Assembly: GCA_016930255.1 (NCBI GenBank) | Contig: JAFGHB010000052.1 | Span: forward strand, 1-41,148 | Direction: 5' to 3' | DNA: 41,148 nt | DNA from: Methanomicrobia archaeon | GTDB taxonomy: Archaea; Halobacteriota; Syntropharchaeia; Alkanophagales; Methanospirareceae | In this document: piece by piece, positions 4,484-13,391 of the stretch | Layout of the letters: the number at the start of each line of letters is the position of its first letter | Position numbering within the stretch: the stretch's first letter is position 1 | Position numbers and translations under genes: made by a program | Notes under the pieces: generated by a model | Told to the model about the DNA's origin: nothing | What the model saw: the letters and a program-made list of their open reading frames with translations, nothing else | Databases searched by the model: none

Positions 4484-5214
4484 CGTGGAAAGCGGTAACC
4501 AGAAAAATGCGAGAACGGGAGCCGCTGTTACAATTAGACAAGACGCAGGCGATCATCATACTCTGCGGGTTCTACCTGTTCTTCTCCTTTGCCGGCAACG
4601 TCGCGGCCACGAAGGTCACCTATTTCGGCCCGCTCGTGATGGATGCGGGGTTCATCTATGCCCTTACGTTCACCTGGCGAGACCTGATCCACAAGCAGCT
4701 CGGCACGAAGGCTGCCATCACCACCATATGGGTGGCTGCGGCGATCAATCTCATTGCCGCGCTCTATTTCCAGCTCGTTGTGATACTGCCCGCAGAGCCC
4801 AGTTGGGCCGAAGCCGGCGGGCAAGCAGCCTGGCAGTTCCTCTTCGGCATCATCGACACCGCAGAAGGTGGTGCCTGGTGGCAGGCTTTATTCTCGCTCC
4901 AGCTCAGGATCGTGCTCGGCTCTATCATCACCATGGTCATCGCCGAGCTCATCGACACGTACGTCTATCACCTATGGACCACGGGCATCGGCAGGAATCG
5001 GCCGCAGTGGAGCAGGGTCTTCGTCTCCAATTCCATCTCCATTCCCGTTGACAGCATACTCTTCCCTCTGATCGCCTTCTCGGGCATCATCAGCACAACG
5101 GCCATGACTGAGATGTTCTATACCAATATCACGGTCAAAGCGATTGTAACGCTGCTGGCCTTCTGGACGATCTACCTCGTACCGGAGAAGCCGATTTATC
5201 GGGAGGATGAGTGA
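4465..5214 (+). CDS. YhhQ/VUT-family queuosine-precursor transporter
   Basis: This 249-residue protein has about six membrane helices (roughly 30-50, 55-72, 80-106, 148-166, 185-213 and 222-240) and the family-typical polar segment SNSISIPVDSILF followed by IAFSG. YhhQ family members import preQ0, preQ1 or queuine across the cytoplasmic membrane. The start codon lies inside the end of tgt, so the two genes are almost certainly co-transcribed and translationally coupled. Together they suggest uptake and insertion of a queuosine precursor with no de novo synthesis genes nearby. The precise substrate cannot be read from the sequence. Confidence 0.8.
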   Translation: MAEKKLTWKAVTRKMREREPLLQLDKTQAIIILCGFYLFFSFAGNVAATKVTYFGPLVMDAGFIYALTFTWRDLIHKQLGTKAAITTIWVAAAINLIAALYFQLVVILPAEPSWAEAGGQAAWQFLFGIIDTAEGGAWWQALFSLQLRIVLGSIITMVIAELIDTYVYHLWTTGIGRNRPQWSRVFVSNSISIPVDSILFPLIAFSGIISTTAMTEMFYTNITVKAIVTLLAFWTIYLVPEKPIYREDE

Positions 5215-5235
5215 CTCGAAAGATAAGAAGGTCCA

Positions 5236-5248: not shown

Positions 5249-5465
5249 TAGTGTAGATTGCCAAATCCAGAATAAAATACTTTATTAAGAAATAACTCAT
5301 AATATGGTAATATTTTTTACATAAAAAGCAAAATTTGAAGCATCCGACGGAGAGAGAAAAGTTTGCATTTTAAAGCATGCAGGAGTAATTCCAGAATTTT
5401 GACCTCATTGCTAGCAGTTCAATCTAATACATGTAATTATGCTAATTCTTTTCTGAAAAAATAGA

Positions 5466-5480
5466 AAAGCTTATATATTA
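5466..5480 (+). promoter_or_regulatory. TATA box of the tubulin-like operon
   Basis: CTTATATATTA is centred near 5474, about 26-30 bases before ATG 5504, with a purine-rich GAAAAG immediately upstream that could act as BRE. This spacing predicts a leaderless mRNA for the first gene. Confidence 0.55.
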
Positions 5481-5503
5481 GGAATTTTGTAATCGTTTAT
5501 GCG

Positions 5504-6229
5504 ATGAAAAATCTAAAAAACCTCATGCTAGTATTTATTGTCCTTACCGTTATTGCAGCGCTTATTCCAACAACTTTGGCGATCTATGTTTCTGAGCGGG
5601 GAATCTTGGAGGGGATGTGCGAAGGGGATGAAGTTGTAAAGTTTCAAATTGATGTTACAGGTGTACCAAGGCCTTACGGTGTAAAAGTTATGACCGATCT
5701 GAGAAATCCATTGCTACTGCCTGAAAATTTGGAAAGCGAGAGTTATAACGCCGAGGGTAACTCCCTTTTTATAAATCCGCCAGCTACGGAGTTTAGCGTT
5801 ACAATCTCTGGCACGACTCCTCCTTCCTACTACAGGGAGCCCTTCGGGACTCGTAACTTGATAAAACTAAATAATGAAGAATATTTGTATTACCATGTCT
5901 TTATAATTGACGATGAGGGAATAACACAAGAAGATTTCGAGAAACCAAAAAGAGTTTTCAAGCTTGAAAAACCGGAATTTTATAGAGAAGGTGAAACAAA
6001 GATTGAGTCAATAGAAAATGAACAATTAAAGGCAATTGCATTATCCCTACTCGAGGAGGGTCTTTTCACTGATGCTTTAAATTTAACTGAAGTTCCAACA
6101 AACTTTCAACCATTAGAGTGGTATAAAACTTGGTGGTTGTGGTTTATTATTGGATTAGCTATTGGAGTATTAATGTTTTATTGTATTTTAAAAGTGACAA
6201 AAACTGAAGAAGACGAGGAGGGATTATAA
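5504..6229 (+). CDS. Exported single-pass membrane protein, first gene of the tubulin-like operon
   Basis: No known family was recognised. Residues 5-27 form a signal peptide or signal anchor (LMLVFIVLTVIAALIPTTLA). Residues 28 to about 205 look like an external beta-rich domain containing alternating hydrophobic and polar strands and a Pro/Ser/Thr-rich middle. A hydrophobic helix at about 211-231 (WFIIGLAIGVLMFYCI) precedes a short acidic cytoplasmic tail (TEEDEEGL). The likely topology is an outside domain with a small inside tail that could dock a cytoplasmic partner. It starts a transcription unit: the next gene begins 4 bases after its stop. Codon use is strongly AT-rich, like the rest of the island. 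Confidence 0.72.
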   Translation: MKNLKNLMLVFIVLTVIAALIPTTLAIYVSERGILEGMCEGDEVVKFQIDVTGVPRPYGVKVMTDLRNPLLLPENLESESYNAEGNSLFINPPATEFSVTISGTTPPSYYREPFGTRNLIKLNNEEYLYYHVFIIDDEGITQEDFEKPKRVFKLEKPEFYREGETKIESIENEQLKAIALSLLEEGLFTDALNLTEVPTNFQPLEWYKTWWLWFIIGLAIGVLMFYCILKVTKTEEDEEGL

Positions 6230-6233
6230 AAAA

Positions 6234-9098
6234 ATGTATCCTGATGAAGTTATAGGATTGGGCGGCACAGGGAAAACTCTGGTGAAAGAACTTTTAAAAA
6301 GCGAATGGTTTGTGGAAGACGTAATAAGCAAATGGGAGGAGAATATACAGCAAGGTGGTAGATTTGGAGGAACAAAGATAAGATTTATTGATAGTGATAC
6401 CAGTCAGATGCCTAGTGATAGGAAAGAATTGGAAGAAATTAAAAAAACCATAAACGAAGTAGGTAAAAAAGTGCTTGAGAGAAAAGATGATTATGCTGTA
6501 AAGGTTTTCAATCTAAACGAAAATGCATATGTAAATTTGGCACCAGGAATGTCCACTCAGCTTTTGGATCCAAAATTTGAAGCGGCAGTTTTAAAAAATG
6601 AAAAACTCAAAACAGAAGTTTGGTGGGTTGATGATGAAGACCATGGGCTCAAAAACTTTGCTAAAACGGTAGATCCCAACTTCGATAGTGCAAGTTTTGC
6701 TAATGGTGTTGTGAGGAAGAGATTCCTTGCGAAATCTCTTATATATTATTATCTAGCTACGAAAGAAGCAAGGCATCTAGAATTAATGGGGACGGGTCGG
6801 CACATTGCGATTGTAACCGCCTTTGGAGGTGGAACTGGAAGTGGTATATTTCTTGACTTAGCAAAGTGGTTGAAGAACTCTATACCTAACTGTGCTGTAA
6901 CATTATTTGCTGTATTACCAACAGGAGAAGAAAGAGGTTCTGAGGCGGTAAATGCTTATGCTGCTCTGAGTGAGTTAGAACAGGAAAAAGAGGATTATAT
7001 TGACTTGGCAATACTCCTACCGTTAGACCTCTCTGGATATAAAGGTGGAGACATAAGAATTCACCCAGGACTCAAAAGTTTCTCAGAAAATTTCCCATAC
7101 AATTTTTGTGGAATATACGATCGTGTCTTTACAGATGATGAATCCTTGGGTCAAGGTCACATAGAGTTCTCAAAAATACCTTTTAAAAAATTCGTCGTTT
7201 CTTCCGCATATAGCGTAAGATATGCTGCAGACAAGTTGAGAGATAAAGACTTCAAGGTGTCAGAAACTTTAAAAACTTTAAAGGAATATTGTGATACTGA
7301 GGAGAAACTTAGAGGAAAAATTGATAAGGTAATTAAGAGGTTTGAATTGCAGACTTCAAGAACTGAAGAGAAAGGAGAACTAAGCAGTGAAAGACTTAAA
7401 GAATTTAAAGATTGCTTTTATGAAGGTGACTTTCCTGAATTACTGCGTTCAACAAACTATGGTATTGTAAATAAGATGAAGCAATTCATTATCGAAGAAA
7501 AGTTATGGGAAGATGAACTATCAAGGTTGAGAGCTAGTGTACTTAGCATACTCGAAGAAGAGTTGCCCATAAAAGATAAAGACCTTTTAAATATTGCTAA
7601 AAAATGGCTTAAGAATATAGATAACTTCACAGAACAAGCTTTGGCAATTGAATCCATTCCAGATTTGCCAATAAGGGATATATTCATTAAAGTTGTTAAA
7701 TCGATTCCTATAGGGGCGGATAAAATGAAATTAGAGGATAGCATAAAGACGCTTAAAGTAAATCTTACGAAAATAGAAAGTGAACTAAATGAGATTGAAG
7801 GTAAAATACAAAATTTGGAGAAAATTAAGTTTATAAAGGACTTTTTAGAAAAGTGTAAAGAAAGAAAAGAAATCCTGTTTAATATGGATGCGCGAGAAAA
7901 CGAAGACAGATGGAAAAAGGAGATAAATCCTGAAGAAGCAATAATTAGACTTAGAGAATGGGGGGCATCTAGATTAGAGGAGGACATGAAAGGTCTATCG
8001 GAGTATTATAGATTATTGGCTACTGAAAATTATTACAATAAAGAGAAAAGAATTTTGAAAGTCATAAAAAGGAAGAGAAAACCAAAACTCGCAGAAAAGG
8101 CAAATGTACGTAAAGAGGACTTTGCGAGAAGACTAAAATATTTTAGGAAAGACACAGAAACGGATGATATCGAGTTAAGGGAGAACTTATTTGAAATATT
8201 TGCTTCACAAGAAATGGGGGCTATGAACGTTGAAAAAAATCTTGATTTATTAAAAAAGAGAAAGGGCGACCTGATAACGCAAAAGGAATCTAACGAAAAG
8301 TTGCAATCTCTTTCTACTGAGATATGGGACTTACTTGAACCTTCGGAGAAAGTTTATTCCCTACGGCAAAAAACGCATAATAAGATGGAAGATGTAATCA
8401 AAATTTCAGAAGGGGCGAGAAGAGGCGAGTTTGTGCTAGAGCTTATGCCTAAAGATTCAGGGATTATAAAAAACTTAACAGAAAGCTCAGACATCACGCT
8501 ATTTAATGAATTTGAAGGCAGTAGAGATTTTGATGAAATCCAAAGGGCACTAACAGATTCATTCAGGGAATTGGTAACGCCTGGAACGAGGGAAGAGAAT
8601 AAGTTCATGTGTGTCAAGGGGACAGTAACAGGAGAAATTAATGGAAGAAAGCGCAGTGTTGGTCCCAACTTTTTGAAGATTATTACGCTTTCTCGTAACG
8701 AAAATTTGCGACCAGATCTAAACTACGAAAGTATTCGGGATATTTACAGCGTGCCGGCTACTAACATCTCCGAAATACCTTTAAGACAGGGAGGGAATTG
8801 GGATACATCGTTCGTTACAGCGATTATGTTTCTTCCTCTAGAAATGCTTATAAATGTGAGTCGTTACTACGATGCGTACGTTGATAAGCTGAACCGTGAA
8901 GGTTATATAGGTATACTCAAGCATCACTCAGCGAATCTAGAGAGAGGGAAATTTTTTGTTAGAGAGAGATGCCTTACTGATACTGAGGTCATAGAACTTT
9001 CTGATATGCCGGAAGATGCACAAAGAGAGAAATTAGATGGTTTATACAAAGAAATTAGTTTAGGTAATCTAGTAGAAGGGAGTTCAAGAGGACTCTAA
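6234..9098 (+). CDS. Large tubulin/FtsZ-like GTPase (FtsZl/Tubulin_2 type)
   Basis: The N-terminal third shows the tubulin-superfamily nucleotide site. It contains a first strand-loop VIGLGGTGKTLV (residues 6-17), a second strand RFIDSDTSQ near 50-58, and the signature GGGTGSG at 198-204, preceded by IVTAF and followed by a Leu/Ala-rich helix, then VLPTGEERGSEAVNAY as in FtsZ/tubulin loops. At 954 residues it is more than twice FtsZ size. The C-terminal part (after about 450) is highly charged and helical, with coiled-coil-like segments around 510-560 and 660-700. It is neither cell-division FtsZ nor CetZ. The best fit is the FtsZ-like family predicted to remodel membranes. GTP binding and polymerisation are inferred. 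Short spacers of 4 and 2 bases tie it to membrane-protein genes on both sides. Confidence 0.75.
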   Translation: MYPDEVIGLGGTGKTLVKELLKSEWFVEDVISKWEENIQQGGRFGGTKIRFIDSDTSQMPSDRKELEEIKKTINEVGKKVLERKDDYAVKVFNLNENAYVNLAPGMSTQLLDPKFEAAVLKNEKLKTEVWWVDDEDHGLKNFAKTVDPNFDSASFANGVVRKRFLAKSLIYYYLATKEARHLELMGTGRHIAIVTAFGGGTGSGIFLDLAKWLKNSIPNCAVTLFAVLPTGEERGSEAVNAYAALSELEQEKEDYIDLAILLPLDLSGYKGGDIRIHPGLKSFSENFPYNFCGIYDRVFTDDESLGQGHIEFSKIPFKKFVVSSAYSVRYAADKLRDKDFKVSETLKTLKEYCDTEEKLRGKIDKVIKRFELQTSRTEEKGELSSERLKEFKDCFYEGDFPELLRSTNYGIVNKMKQFIIEEKLWEDELSRLRASVLSILEEELPIKDKDLLNIAKKWLKNIDNFTEQALAIESIPDLPIRDIFIKVVKSIPIGADKMKLEDSIKTLKVNLTKIESELNEIEGKIQNLEKIKFIKDFLEKCKERKEILFNMDARENEDRWKKEINPEEAIIRLREWGASRLEEDMKGLSEYYRLLATENYYNKEKRILKVIKRKRKPKLAEKANVRKEDFARRLKYFRKDTETDDIELRENLFEIFASQEMGAMNVEKNLDLLKKRKGDLITQKESNEKLQSLSTEIWDLLEPSEKVYSLRQKTHNKMEDVIKISEGARRGEFVLELMPKDSGIIKNLTESSDITLFNEFEGSRDFDEIQRALTDSFRELVTPGTREENKFMCVKGTVTGEINGRKRSVGPNFLKIITLSRNENLRPDLNYESIRDIYSVPATNISEIPLRQGGNWDTSFVTAIMFLPLEMLINVSRYYDAYVDKLNREGYIGILKHHSANLERGKFFVRERCLTDTEVIELSDMPEDAQREKLDGLYKEISLGNLVEGSSRGL

Positions 9099-9100
9099 TA

Positions 9101-9637
9101 ATGAAGTTCACGAAAAGGGATCTGGTACGAGCGATCGTGCTGGGGCTTCTCGGGGGTCTCTCTATTTTATTTTTCTCCATATTCCATAGCAAATATGGAT
9201 ATATTCCATATCTAAATGTGGATAAATTAAATTATTTGACTCCTATTTTAGGTTTTATAATTGGCTTGAGCGTGGGGAATTATGAAAGTGATGAAATTAG
9301 GTTAAGGATGTTCGGAGTCTTTATATTGGCCATTTCAGTGTTTGCATTAGTGAAGTGGTATCCTTTTTTTTCTGGTTATTTACTTGAATTAGGACTAGGT
9401 TTGTTTTTAGGTCTTGTAACATCTTTCTACGCTATTTACGTACACAATTATATTTTAGTAAAAATATCGAATGGTTTGGTAATGTGTGTCATATCAGTTG
9501 AGTATATATTGTATTTGTTAGTTCTTATAGACGGCAGAGTTCTTGATATTGAGGGGATTATTTGTGGTTTTTCCTCTCTTTTGATATTTCCAATTGTAGG
9601 CTACTTAGTTTTAAAAGGTAAAAGGAGTAAATTATAA
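9101..9637 (+). CDS. Six-helix membrane protein of the tubulin-like operon
   Basis: No family was recognised. The 178 residues are almost entirely hydrophobic, with about six helices near 12-30, 46-61, 70-88, 92-117, 124-142 and 151-171. A basic N-terminus (MKFTKRDLVR) and basic C-terminus (KGKRSK) suggest both ends lie inside the cell. It starts 2 bases after the tubulin-like gene and ends 2 bases before the GTPase gene, so translation is probably coupled. The context suggests a membrane anchor or platform for the cytoplasmic tubulin-like protein and GTPase. A transport role cannot be excluded. Confidence 0.7.
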   Translation: MKFTKRDLVRAIVLGLLGGLSILFFSIFHSKYGYIPYLNVDKLNYLTPILGFIIGLSVGNYESDEIRLRMFGVFILAISVFALVKWYPFFSGYLLELGLGLFLGLVTSFYAIYVHNYILVKISNGLVMCVISVEYILYLLVLIDGRVLDIEGIICGFSSLLIFPIVGYLVLKGKRSKL

Positions 9638-9639
9638 TT

Positions 9640-10593
9640 ATGGGGACAACAGCGCTTCTGGGAAGGAGAAGTGCAGGAAAAACAACATTTACTTGCATGT
9701 GTTATTCGGTTGCAGATACGCTCCCTTGGTCCACTACATTTCAACCTGAAATAACAGATGAAACGGACATCCTAAAGATTTTAGACGATTTTATTAGCGA
9801 AAAATTATTGCCTCCAGAAACGCCTAGACGAATTTGGAATCTTACATCGATACCAGTAGTGAGTCGACTGTATGATGAAGAAATTCTTTATGTAGATTGT
9901 GCTGGAGATATACAAATGGAAGCACTTAAAGAAATTTATGACAACATTGAGAAAAAGGGGAGAAAAGGTTCTTTGAAATTAATTTTATCAAATATTTCTG
10001 CGAGAGAAAAAAATGAGGAGTTGAATGATTTTGTAGATTCCTTTATACTTAAAAAGTCGTTTTCCAGAAGTCAAGCTAAAGAATTGGGAAAAATTAAGGC
10101 TGATATTAAAGTAAAAGTAAAAATTGCTTTCGTAAAATCTATTTTTGACGCTAATCGGTTAATCGTATTAGTTGATGGGTCTGAATTAAGAAATTGGCAA
10201 GAAGGAGGAACAGAAGGCTTGTATGAGAGTCTTAATATTTTTACCAAAATTATTGAAGAGATAAAATTTTCGAAAGTTGCCGTAGTCATTAGTAAAGGGC
10301 ATCTTTTTGGAGTAAATAAAGACAATTACAAAAGTAGGCTAGAATTTATTGAAAGAGAGTATCTTAAGAAGTATCCGGGGACAAAATCCTTGATCAACGC
10401 TAGATTTAATAGAATAAAGGTTTTTTGCGTTGGAGTCCCCTCAGCAGGCTATAAATGCGAGATATGTAAGCGCTTTTATCCGAGAGAGTCGTACTACATA
10501 GAAAGGCCATGGTGCTGTGACATCCCCACTCGGGAAACTTATACAGATATAAACGAGATATTTGGTGTGGAACAAATCATGAATTGGCTTTGA
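9640..10593 (+). CDS. P-loop GTPase-like protein with a C-terminal cysteine cluster
   Basis: The protein begins directly with a strand and a Walker A motif GRRSAGKT at residues 8-15. Residues 82-90 read LYVDCAGDI, matching a G3/Walker B DxxG (Asp86-Gly89). A later strand, VAVVISKGH, sits where the G4 NKxD motif would be but lacks the canonical Asp, so nucleotide specificity is uncertain. Near the C-terminus C273, C276, C292 and C293 (CEIC and WCCD) could bind zinc. It has 317 residues and no membrane segment. It is the fourth gene of the tight operon. A distinct GTPase is a stated partner of FtsZl-1 proteins in published genome-context work, which fits this arrangement. Confidence 0.68.
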   Translation: MGTTALLGRRSAGKTTFTCMCYSVADTLPWSTTFQPEITDETDILKILDDFISEKLLPPETPRRIWNLTSIPVVSRLYDEEILYVDCAGDIQMEALKEIYDNIEKKGRKGSLKLILSNISAREKNEELNDFVDSFILKKSFSRSQAKELGKIKADIKVKVKIAFVKSIFDANRLIVLVDGSELRNWQEGGTEGLYESLNIFTKIIEEIKFSKVAVVISKGHLFGVNKDNYKSRLEFIEREYLKKYPGTKSLINARFNRIKVFCVGVPSAGYKCEICKRFYPRESYYIERPWCCDIPTRETYTDINEIFGVEQIMNWL

Positions 10594-10650
10594 AATGATT
10601 TCTAAAATGACTACATGAAAAACGGTTACCACTAAATGAGGATCGGAGGG

Positions 10651-11061
10651 ATGTTAGATGTACACAAGGATGTGCATAAAGGGAATGGTCGCTACGCGAG
10701 GTGAATGGTAGGAGTTGAATGATGAAGAAGGATCATTTTCCGACGATAGGAAAAATCCGGACGATTTTGTAAAGGCCCTATCGGGGGGGGGGGTAAGATG
10801 GCGATCGAGGCAGCGGCCCGGCATCTGACGGAGTCGGTCTACAGGGTGTTAACGAAATGGGAAGCTTATAAAGAGGTTGATAAGGATGAAAATAAGATAG
10901 GAAGAGCCGCATCTTTCTCCTTATCCCCGCGAGGACCAGTAAAAATAGTTGAAGCAAATATGAAAACGACGATTAACCATGTGCTGCGGAAGGAACGTAA
11001 AGATGAATGTCGACCCGAGAAGTTGATGTATGGAGAAGGGATGAGTGAATATCGGGTTTAA
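10651..11061 (+). pseudogene. Decayed IS110-family transposase remnant
   Basis: Two pieces in the same frame resemble the two ends of an IS110/IS116/IS902 transposase. At 10651 a short frame reads MLDVHKDVH, like the N-terminal DVHK block holding the first DEDD catalytic Asp, and stops at 10702. From about 10771 the frame reads KGPI, a glycine run, then MAIEAAARHLTESVY, like the C-terminal Transposase_20 segment (GPI...G..., then EAA.H). The middle domain is missing. An 11-G tract (10783-10793) sits in this part and could hide an assembly length error. The GC-richer composition differs from the AT-rich island around it. The remnant separates the four-gene operon from the next island gene. Confidence 0.5.
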
Positions 11062-11109
11062 TATAATGCAGCCAAAAAGTAAAATATGGACGGGGGGTGC
11101 TTTTCAGAG

Positions 11110-12504
11110 ATGCAAATCGAGAAATCATTTTCTAGAAATCATGAACTAGATGTTGGGAATACTGAGGCATCTAATGGAAGTAAGGTAAAAAAGTTGCAAA
11201 TTGTACTTTCCGAGGGGGCACATGTATTAAACCCTGAGGGTTATATCGAAAGAGGTAGAAGAGGAATCGAACCAAATACAAAAGAGCTTTTAAGTTCCTT
11301 ATTTGATACCTACGGTTGTTTTCTCATTTTTGATGGAAAACAAATACTTTTTGCCACTCCACTTAAGTGTTCAGAAAGAACGGGTGGTGGAGGTGTTAGA
11401 CCCAGTTATAGAGTGGGTGTATTTAAGGGTTTATTTGGTGGTAACGAAAAAATTGAAAATTGGCTTACTAAAGCGGAATCCAAGATAAGGGAGGAAATAA
11501 ATGATACAACAAACGGGTTCATTGAGTTTTTTGAAAGCGCAAATCTCGTATTTAACTTACCAAATATCTCCAAAAGCGATAGCGATATAGGATATACACT
11601 TATGAATGTGGTCTTTAAGAATAAAAATATCAAAACTAGAATAAGTGGACTTTTAGCAGCTAATATTTTAATGCTTGAAAAGCATCCATTCTCTTTTTAT
11701 ATTTCTAATAGCGACGAAAACGTAGAAAAATGGAATTTTGATGTAATTATATCGAAAAATTGTGTAAAAAAAGAAGATAAATACTCCAATATATATGATT
11801 TTATCATAAAAAATTTCCGATTTTATACACAAGGACATCTGGAAGAAATAATTGAAATTGCTCTTGAACGAGTAGATTTCTATCCGCCAGAATACATTTC
11901 TTTTCTCTGGAAAATAGAGCGTATGGATATAATAAAGGAACTCATATCTCAAAAAAAAGTCTCAAAAAATCAACTTAATCAGTTCAACATAGAGCAGAAG
12001 TTAGAGTTGATAGAAGAGCATTTTGAGCCCTTTATTGCGGTAGAAAACATAAAAACCATGCTATTGAGGAACGGGCGGCCTTCAATATCTCCACCTGCTT
12101 TGAAAGAACCAATTATTAGAGACATTGTTTTAGAAAAAGATAGAATAATGCTCCAAAAAATTCCCCCATCTAAAATCTCGGAGACTTTAAGAAAGTATGG
12201 CTATGAAATAAAAAAATCTAAAGAAGCGGCTGTTCTTCTCAGAGGATATTTGGAACGAAGGGTTGAGAGTGAAAGTCTAAAAGATTTTGATGAGGAAGGG
12301 GGAGTGGACCTATTATCTAAACTTTTAAAATTGGATTTATTAAATGAGAATACACGAGAGAAAATCATCAATAAAATAGATAGTAAAAACGATTTGAAAA
12401 TATTATGTAAAAAGGAAGCTATTTGGAATAAGTGGGAAGGAAAAATTAAGAAAAGATGGAAGGAAATACCTGAAGAGGTAGAAGAAGAGGTATATGAATT
12501 GTAA
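11110..12504 (+). CDS. Unknown 464-residue cytoplasmic protein at the end of the island
   Basis: No family or motif was recognised. The protein is soluble-looking, rich in Lys, Glu, Ile and Asn, with a mixed alpha/beta N-terminal part to about residue 190 and a helical C-terminal part with many charged Leu/Ile-spaced segments ending EEVEEEVYEL. ATG 11110 is preferred because GGGGGGTG lies 10 bases upstream and an AT-rich TATA-like element (about 11057-11068) predicts transcription from near 11090. An in-frame ATG at 11086 would add eight residues. AT-rich codon use matches the tubulin-like operon. It may be a former fifth gene of that operon now cut off by the IS110 remnant, but this is inference. 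Confidence 0.62.
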   Translation: MQIEKSFSRNHELDVGNTEASNGSKVKKLQIVLSEGAHVLNPEGYIERGRRGIEPNTKELLSSLFDTYGCFLIFDGKQILFATPLKCSERTGGGGVRPSYRVGVFKGLFGGNEKIENWLTKAESKIREEINDTTNGFIEFFESANLVFNLPNISKSDSDIGYTLMNVVFKNKNIKTRISGLLAANILMLEKHPFSFYISNSDENVEKWNFDVIISKNCVKKEDKYSNIYDFIIKNFRFYTQGHLEEIIEIALERVDFYPPEYISFLWKIERMDIIKELISQKKVSKNQLNQFNIEQKLELIEEHFEPFIAVENIKTMLLRNGRPSISPPALKEPIIRDIVLEKDRIMLQKIPPSKISETLRKYGYEIKKSKEAAVLLRGYLERRVESESLKDFDEEGGVDLLSKLLKLDLLNENTREKIINKIDSKNDLKILCKKEAIWNKWEGKIKKRWKEIPEEVEEEVYEL

Positions 12505-12920: not shown

Positions 12921-13391
12921 CTATTCCTTCCCCAAAAACTCATCCAGCTTTCTATCCGCAGTTGTTTCTGTCAGCCCTCTGTGCTCGTAGCTCTTCTTGT
13001 CGTCGACGATGTGAATTACAGTGTGCCCGCGCTGTGTAAGCGCATCGGCGATAAACCGCCGGTGGCACCGGAAGAAGAGCAGCTCCGCGCACATCAATGC
13101 CACCCGCTTTGACGCGGCAAGCTCTTCCACGCACGCCAACCCTCGCTCGAATTCCGGCGATTCCATGTACTTGCGATAGCCGCCTTTCCGGTAGCCGCCG
13201 AGCCGTCCTACATGATAGTATTCAATACCGTGCTGCTCCAGGCATTCTTTGAGGCGATCGCGTGTGAAGTGCCGGTAGCGGGACGTCGGGAACCGTCTGA
13301 CGTCCACGATAACCTCGATCTGGTACGCTCTGAGCACGTGCAAAAACTCCTTCATACTCCTCGTACTCGTCCCAACGGTCCAGAGTTTCAC
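12921..13391 (-). CDS. DUF488 family protein
   Basis: The 156-residue product has the DUF488 hallmarks: an N-terminal WTVGTSTRS, a conserved VDVRRFPTS segment near residue 30, a GGYRKGGY block near 67, and the motif CAE followed by CHRRFIAD around 100-115. The biochemical role of the family is unknown; the conserved cysteine and the Cys-His-Arg suggest a small catalytic or binding site. The likely start is GTG at 13391, because the in-phase frame has no nearby ATG and the family begins here. It is transcribed alone, convergent with the island. Confidence 0.82.
   Translation of the reverse strand: MKLWTVGTSTRSMKEFLHVLRAYQIEVIVDVRRFPTSRYRHFTRDRLKECLEQHGIEYYHVGRLGGYRKGGYRKYMESPEFERGLACVEELAASKRVALMCAELLFFRCHRRFIADALTQRGHTVIHIVDDKKSYEHRGLTETTADRKLDEFLGKE

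Follow-up and report, generated by a model that had tools for sequence, protein, structure and literature searches.

An AT-rich operon of a Methanomicrobia archaeon as a divergent variant of the archaeal FtsZl1 gene set, with the GTPase detached from its membrane part

The FtsZl1 proteins have been described as some of the most structurally diverged members of the tubulin/FtsZ superfamily, and membrane remodelling was predicted for the operons that encode them (Makarova and Koonin, 2010; PMC2875224). According to the same work, a vWA gene is present in the majority, not all, of FtsZl1 operons, and the GTPases of the archaeal operons were implied to be membrane-associated. A second study linked DO-GTPases, some of them with four N-terminal transmembrane (TM) helices, to tubulins, and predicted that bacterial gene neighbourhoods with related GTPases and tubulins are conflict systems (Kaur et al., 2020; PMC7159879). 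Here we describe an operon found in the window, by which we mean the whole stretch of 41,148 nucleotides analysed, from a Methanomicrobia archaeon. Our findings identify it as a divergent, fast-evolving variant of a known archaeal gene set in which the GTPase is detached from the membrane part, and no new kind of system; on sequence comparison, we consider it very probable that the locus is a divergent member of the archaeal FtsZl1 membrane operon type.

The operon lies in an AT-rich island that extends from about 5.2 to 12.9 kb of the window, with a GC content of 0.31-0.41 against mostly 0.48-0.58 in the flanks. Its four genes, all on the plus strand, have GC of 0.33-0.37 and GC3 of 0.30-0.34, whereas the flanking genes show GC of 0.53-0.57 and GC3 of 0.62-0.76, a contrast in agreement with the original prediction of an AT-rich operon. 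They encode, in this order, an exported single-pass protein, a 954-aa tubulin-like protein, a polytopic membrane protein and a P-loop GTPase, and the ORF coordinates, with gaps of 4, 2 and 2 bases, reproduce the spacing of 2-4 bases that had been claimed. Genes 2, 3 and 4 are each preceded by a purine-rich Shine-Dalgarno-like stretch, and ahead of the operon (5465-5503, plus strand) a putative archaeal promoter-like TATA element (AAAAGCTTATATATTAGG) can be read, with TTATATA at 5471-5477, 27 bases 5' of the ATG at 5504. The interval first assigned to the locus, 5504-12504, did hold these four genes as described; two further ORFs within it, at 10798-11061 and 11086-12504, had been left undescribed. 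No vWA-domain gene was found among the island proteins by Pfam search, and neither convincing flanking repeats, nor a tRNA at the island border, nor an Rfam match was detected.

The assignment of the 954-aa protein (6234-9098, plus strand) to the tubulin/FtsZ superfamily is secure on profile evidence but not on structural evidence. The protein matches Pfam Tubulin_2 (PF13809) at 3.4e-12 and 46.7 bits (cut-off 27) and stays just below the cut-off of the general Pfam Tubulin model. Against the FtsZl1 profile it gives an E-value of 3.6e-81 over the N-terminal 530 aa, with a second match at 527-944 (E-values of window proteins against operon-family profiles refer to a search set of 15 proteins). 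In the PDB, TubZ was the best match of the single sequence, insignificant at 0.019, while a 14-sequence family profile of its relatives reached TubZ and FtsZ structures at 3e-5, and stretches 418-631 of that profile matched coiled-coil chains. The FtsZ-like family named in the original prediction, FtsZl1, is upheld by the Tubulin_2 match above cut-off and by the TubZ and FtsZ matches, and both motifs that it had pointed out were located, a T1-like GLGGTGKT intact at residue 8 and the T4 loop GGGTGSG intact at residues 198-204. Among 62 columns nearly invariant in 13 relatives, 45 are retained, including GGxGK and GGGTGSG. The architecture comprises an N-terminal GTP-binding domain, a coiled-coil middle and a C-terminal domain; the Pfam and PDB searches matched only the N-terminal region and detected neither FtsZ_C nor a tubulin C-terminal domain. 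An AF2 model built from two sequences was not usable (mean pLDDT 33.8; the strand-helix order agrees, but confidence is too low), and for this reason the fold rests on profiles. The protein is 18-27% identical to all its relatives found and, in a tree that does not resolve its place, sits on the longest branch (2.43).

Upstream of it, gene 1 (5504-6229, plus strand) encodes an exported single-pass protein of 241 aa, with a signal-like N-terminus, an outer domain of about 170 aa, a juxtamembrane helix, a C-terminal TM helix at about residue 211 and a short acidic cytosolic tail, TEEDEEGL. It matches the profile of the gene found upstream of FtsZl1 in 13 archaeal loci (E 4.3e-19, 58.5 bits, positions 12-233 of 248) and the exported-anchor family by hhalign with a probability of 97.7.

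The same gene order recurs in many archaea, which answers the earlier question of whether the four genes occur together elsewhere. We compared 20 neighbourhoods, four more from plasmids and that of G021; the counts refer to 23 loci besides the window and take in neither G021, which is truncated within the tubulin gene, nor a duplicate of pMETEV01. The usual order is an exported protein of about 245 aa with a C-terminal TM helix, an FtsZl1 of about 1050 aa, a TM-GTPase fusion of about 480 aa (a P-loop GTPase at the C-terminus, preceded by five or six TM helices at the N-terminus) and gene 4, made of a soluble N-terminal part, a TM helix and an outer part. The TM-GTPase is encoded in all 23 loci, nine of them outside the training set of the profile; it lies downstream on the same strand in 22 and upstream in one (L072). 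The exported-anchor gene is present in 14 of the 23, and also in the G021 locus, and gene 4 likewise in 14 (L055_11, probably a wrong-frame ORF, was removed from the gene-4 set). In one case (G383, L060:13030-15492) gene 4 seems to have a duplicated N-terminal domain. For the large tubulin-like protein, strong matches among 394 phylum genomes came from G021 and G310, of the same family as the host, and from many others, including the family to which the Methanohalobium evestigatum plasmid pMETEV01 belongs. More distant relatives are carried on haloarchaeal plasmids, in the neighbourhood of Hsp70, vWA and GrpE genes; two of these (L019, L020) have FtsZl1 and TM-GTPase near Hsp70 and vWA, with GrpE in L020. 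The original prediction of a GTPase partner and membrane partners in an archaeal host holds; gene 1 and the GTPase match operon families by profile. Its proposal that two unknown membrane proteins, in place of vWA or OmpA, set the locus apart does not, since an exported anchor and membrane helices are common beside FtsZl1 in Methanosarcinales-type genomes, and the six-helix protein and the GTPase are one fused protein elsewhere.

What sets the window apart is that this fusion is split, that the GTPase has an altered motif and a Cys cluster, that gene 4 is missing and that there is an extra 472-aa gene. Gene 3 (9101-9637, plus strand) encodes a polytopic membrane protein of 178 aa, recognised by hydropathy, position in the operon and a weak profile match. 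Of the six helices first described, the hydropathy scan gave five clear ones, and a sixth is plausible. It matches the archaeal TM-GTPase profile weakly but collinearly (8.0 bits; hhalign P 1.4e-4, probability 52, positions 7-148 of 508), and probably is the counterpart of the N-terminal membrane half. Gene 4 of the window (9640-10593, plus strand) encodes a separate P-loop GTPase of 317 aa, which by its profile match (E 3.1e-9, 25.7 bits; hhalign probability 96.9, positions 202-449) is the counterpart of the C-terminal half. Here the fusion is parted between membrane part and P-loop: a stop lies in the linker, the two genes are read in different frames, and 12 bases ahead of the ATG of the GTPase stands a Shine-Dalgarno-like AGGAG of its own (9623-9627). 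Of the motifs of a TRAFAC P-loop GTPase, Walker A (GRRSAGKT) and Walker B with DxxG (DCAG) are present. In the G4 motif, SKGH replaces TKxD, of which T and D occur in 11 of 11 aligned relatives, and guanine specificity is doubtful because the Asp is absent. The C-terminal Cys cluster (C273-x2-C276 and C292-C293) occurs, among the aligned sequences, only in that of the window; the separate GTPase with a Cys cluster is as it had been described. Gene content, the homology of genes 1, 2 and 4, the collinearity of genes 3 and 4 with the fused TM-GTPase and the intact T1-like and T4 loops are all directly supported by these comparisons.

A slightly GC-richer spacer (0.46) of 492 bases, at 10594-11085, separates the GTPase from the 472-aa gene. 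It is no genome repeat, with only a 49-base match of 78% elsewhere in the genome, and holds a run of eleven G at about 10783-10794 as well as an 87-aa ORF of doubtful reality (10798-11061, plus strand), without a family match. The canonical gene 4 is not detectable in the window, and its place is taken by the ORF of an orphan 472-aa protein (11086-12504, plus strand), a candidate member of the system. No relatives of this protein were found in Pfam, NCBIfam, PADLOC, PHROGs, the 394 phylum genomes, plasmids, phages or viral contigs, and AF2 gave a mean pLDDT of 46.7. We considered whether it is a divergent gene 4 and do not claim this: the strand/helix order looks similar by eye, but hhalign did no better than with shuffled sequences and hmmsearch found nothing.

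The window-type operon occurs in 3 of the 51 family genomes (the host, G000, and G021 and G310). DNA similarity to G209 and G004 ends at window positions 5212-5230 and restarts at about 12925-12977, and G209 has two unrelated genes between the same neighbours. The shift in GC and GC3, the sporadic distribution in the family and the break of similarity at the island borders suggest that the operon was probably acquired horizontally. This is most simply read as acquisition at a variable site; no clean empty site was found for the island. A viral link was rejected, as searches of viral contigs (FtsZl1 with two profiles, the GTPase and the 472-aa protein) and of phages (FtsZl1 and the 472-aa protein) came up empty. 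The host genome also has two ordinary FtsZ genes, a tubulin-like frame of 314 aa and, on contig C15, another FtsZl1 gene, and for this reason it is improbable that the window operon serves as division machinery. Five tubulin-superfamily genes were found in all, the two FtsZ genes and the 314-aa frame lying at G000:C60:1801, C10:5089 and C22:3985. The second FtsZl1 gene of the host has a GC3 of 0.66 and represents an operon type found in about 30 of the 51 family genomes, with a membrane protein of 145-148 aa, an FtsZl1 of about 900 aa and an exported single-pass protein of about 350 aa. Upstream, several operons of this type also encode a tubulin-like protein of 308 aa (Pfam Tubulin 2.8e-6) and a coiled-coil membrane protein of 425 aa; an operon with two members of the tubulin superfamily may merit a study of its own. 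No MCR alpha subunit was found in the host genome, rated 95% complete; this bears on the metabolism of the host lineage, and a methanogen or methane-oxidiser physiology is not claimed.

Our literature search found no experiment on any FtsZl1 operon, and therefore the functional part of our reading, namely GTP binding, polymerisation, membrane tethering, the switch role and the biological output, is inferred. We hypothesize that the exported protein would sit in the membrane with its outer domain outside and its short acidic tail inside. The 954-aa protein would bind GTP through its N-terminal domain and assemble via the coiled coil and C-terminal domain, not by a standard FtsZ C-terminal half, and the resulting scaffold would be held at the membrane by the tail of the gene 1 protein or by the polytopic protein. 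The free GTPase would presumably dock on the six-helix membrane protein in place of the fusion and would switch assembly on or off upon an envelope signal, the outcome being envelope remodelling or an envelope-stress response. Overall, we lean slightly towards envelope remodelling or envelope response as the function of the operon.

It is possible, if rather unlikely, that the operon instead serves biological conflict (defence) as Kaur et al. (2020) understand it, in which case the GTPase would be a DO-GTPase-like threshold switch, the tubulin an assembling effector and the 472-aa protein a variable sensor or effector. The published link of DO-GTPases, some with TM helices, to tubulins (PMC7159879) favours this idea, together with the sporadic, AT-rich nature of the island, the relatives on archaeal plasmids with Hsp70, vWA and GrpE, and the canonical archaeal TM-GTPase, which reaches Pfam DO-GTPase2 at 4e-6 and 27.1 bits, just at the cut-off of 27. 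The window GTPase itself, however, meets DO-GTPase2 (PF19993) only at the P-loop, with 18.7 bits, below the same cut-off, and an ABC ATPase encoded in the window does at least as well. No GAP1 model was found in the window proteins, the 472-aa protein included (E 1), or in 13 gene-4 relatives (E 10), no PADLOC model matches, the operon is widespread on archaeal chromosomes, and the defence role of the systems of Kaur et al. is itself predicted. Remodelling or envelope response is favoured over a conflict system because GAP1 was not found and the DO-GTPase2 match is no better than that of the ABC ATPase.

The unusual features might also be signs of decay, if a once-canonical operon had its TM-GTPase broken by mutation, lost the guanine-specificity Asp and gene 4, and is now non-functional. 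Although the split fusion, SKGH, the missing gene 4 and the very long branch would fit, we judge decay improbable: each of the four ORFs is intact and of good length, genes 2-4 are preceded by Shine-Dalgarno-like sites, the break falls at a domain boundary and leaves a GTPase with its own start and site, and the nearly invariant FtsZl1 columns are largely retained (45 of 62, with GGxGK and GGGTGSG). Equally little weight is given to a mobile, rebuilt FtsZl1 module, in which a freed GTPase with changed or lost guanine specificity would sense metal or redox through its Cys cluster and control the polymer together with a 472-aa sensor or effector. A sequencing or assembly error in one fused gene is improbable as well, since, even with the halves fused in other loci with complete genes and a draft genome of 87 contigs, both a stop and a change of frame would have to fall precisely in the linker, and AGGAG lies 12 bases before the GTPase ATG, matching the other operon genes.

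The comparison narrows the archaeal system to a short core of exported anchor, FtsZl1, membrane-anchored GTPase and, often, a TM gene 4. The natural split in the window indicates that membrane part and GTPase are separable, which makes it testable which half binds the tubulin-like protein. The value of the locus lies in this useful handle on a class that appears to be without experimental work, and not in a new system.

Compared with the DO-GTPase/GAP1-N2 tubulin systems (PMC7159879), the window shares a GTPase and a coiled-coil tubulin near the membrane, whereas GAP1, vWA and an FNIII protein were not detected and those systems are bacterial; the Hsp70 and vWA themes of the bacterial systems are similar to those of the haloarchaeal plasmid loci L019 and L020. 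The second FtsZl1 operon of the same family (C15/L009; L011, L013) resembles the window in a Tubulin_2 FtsZl1 (899 aa), an exported single-pass protein and a small polytopic membrane protein, but its partners fail the window profiles, no GTPase gene is seen beside FtsZl1 and its GC is genome-like. In relation to the FtsZl1 operons of Makarova and Koonin (PMC2875224), the window differs by its free-standing GTPase with SKGH and Cys cluster, the orphan 472-aa gene and the very long branch, and is without a vWA, kinase or OmpA gene and without gene 4. It agrees with that family in the FtsZ/tubulin N-terminal motifs, GGGTG(S/T)G, the extended coiled coil and the helical C-terminal part, and with its operons in the partner P-loop GTPase (implied to be membrane-associated in archaea), the lineage-specific membrane genes and an ordinary FtsZ also in the host. 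The Methanosarcinales-type and pMETEV01 operons (L054-L069, L018), unlike the window, have a fused TM-GTPase, after which there is usually a TM gene 4 that includes an outer domain, and a tubulin of about 1039-1086 aa against 954; with them the window shares the order of anchor (not detected on pMETEV01), FtsZl1, six-helix part and GTPase.
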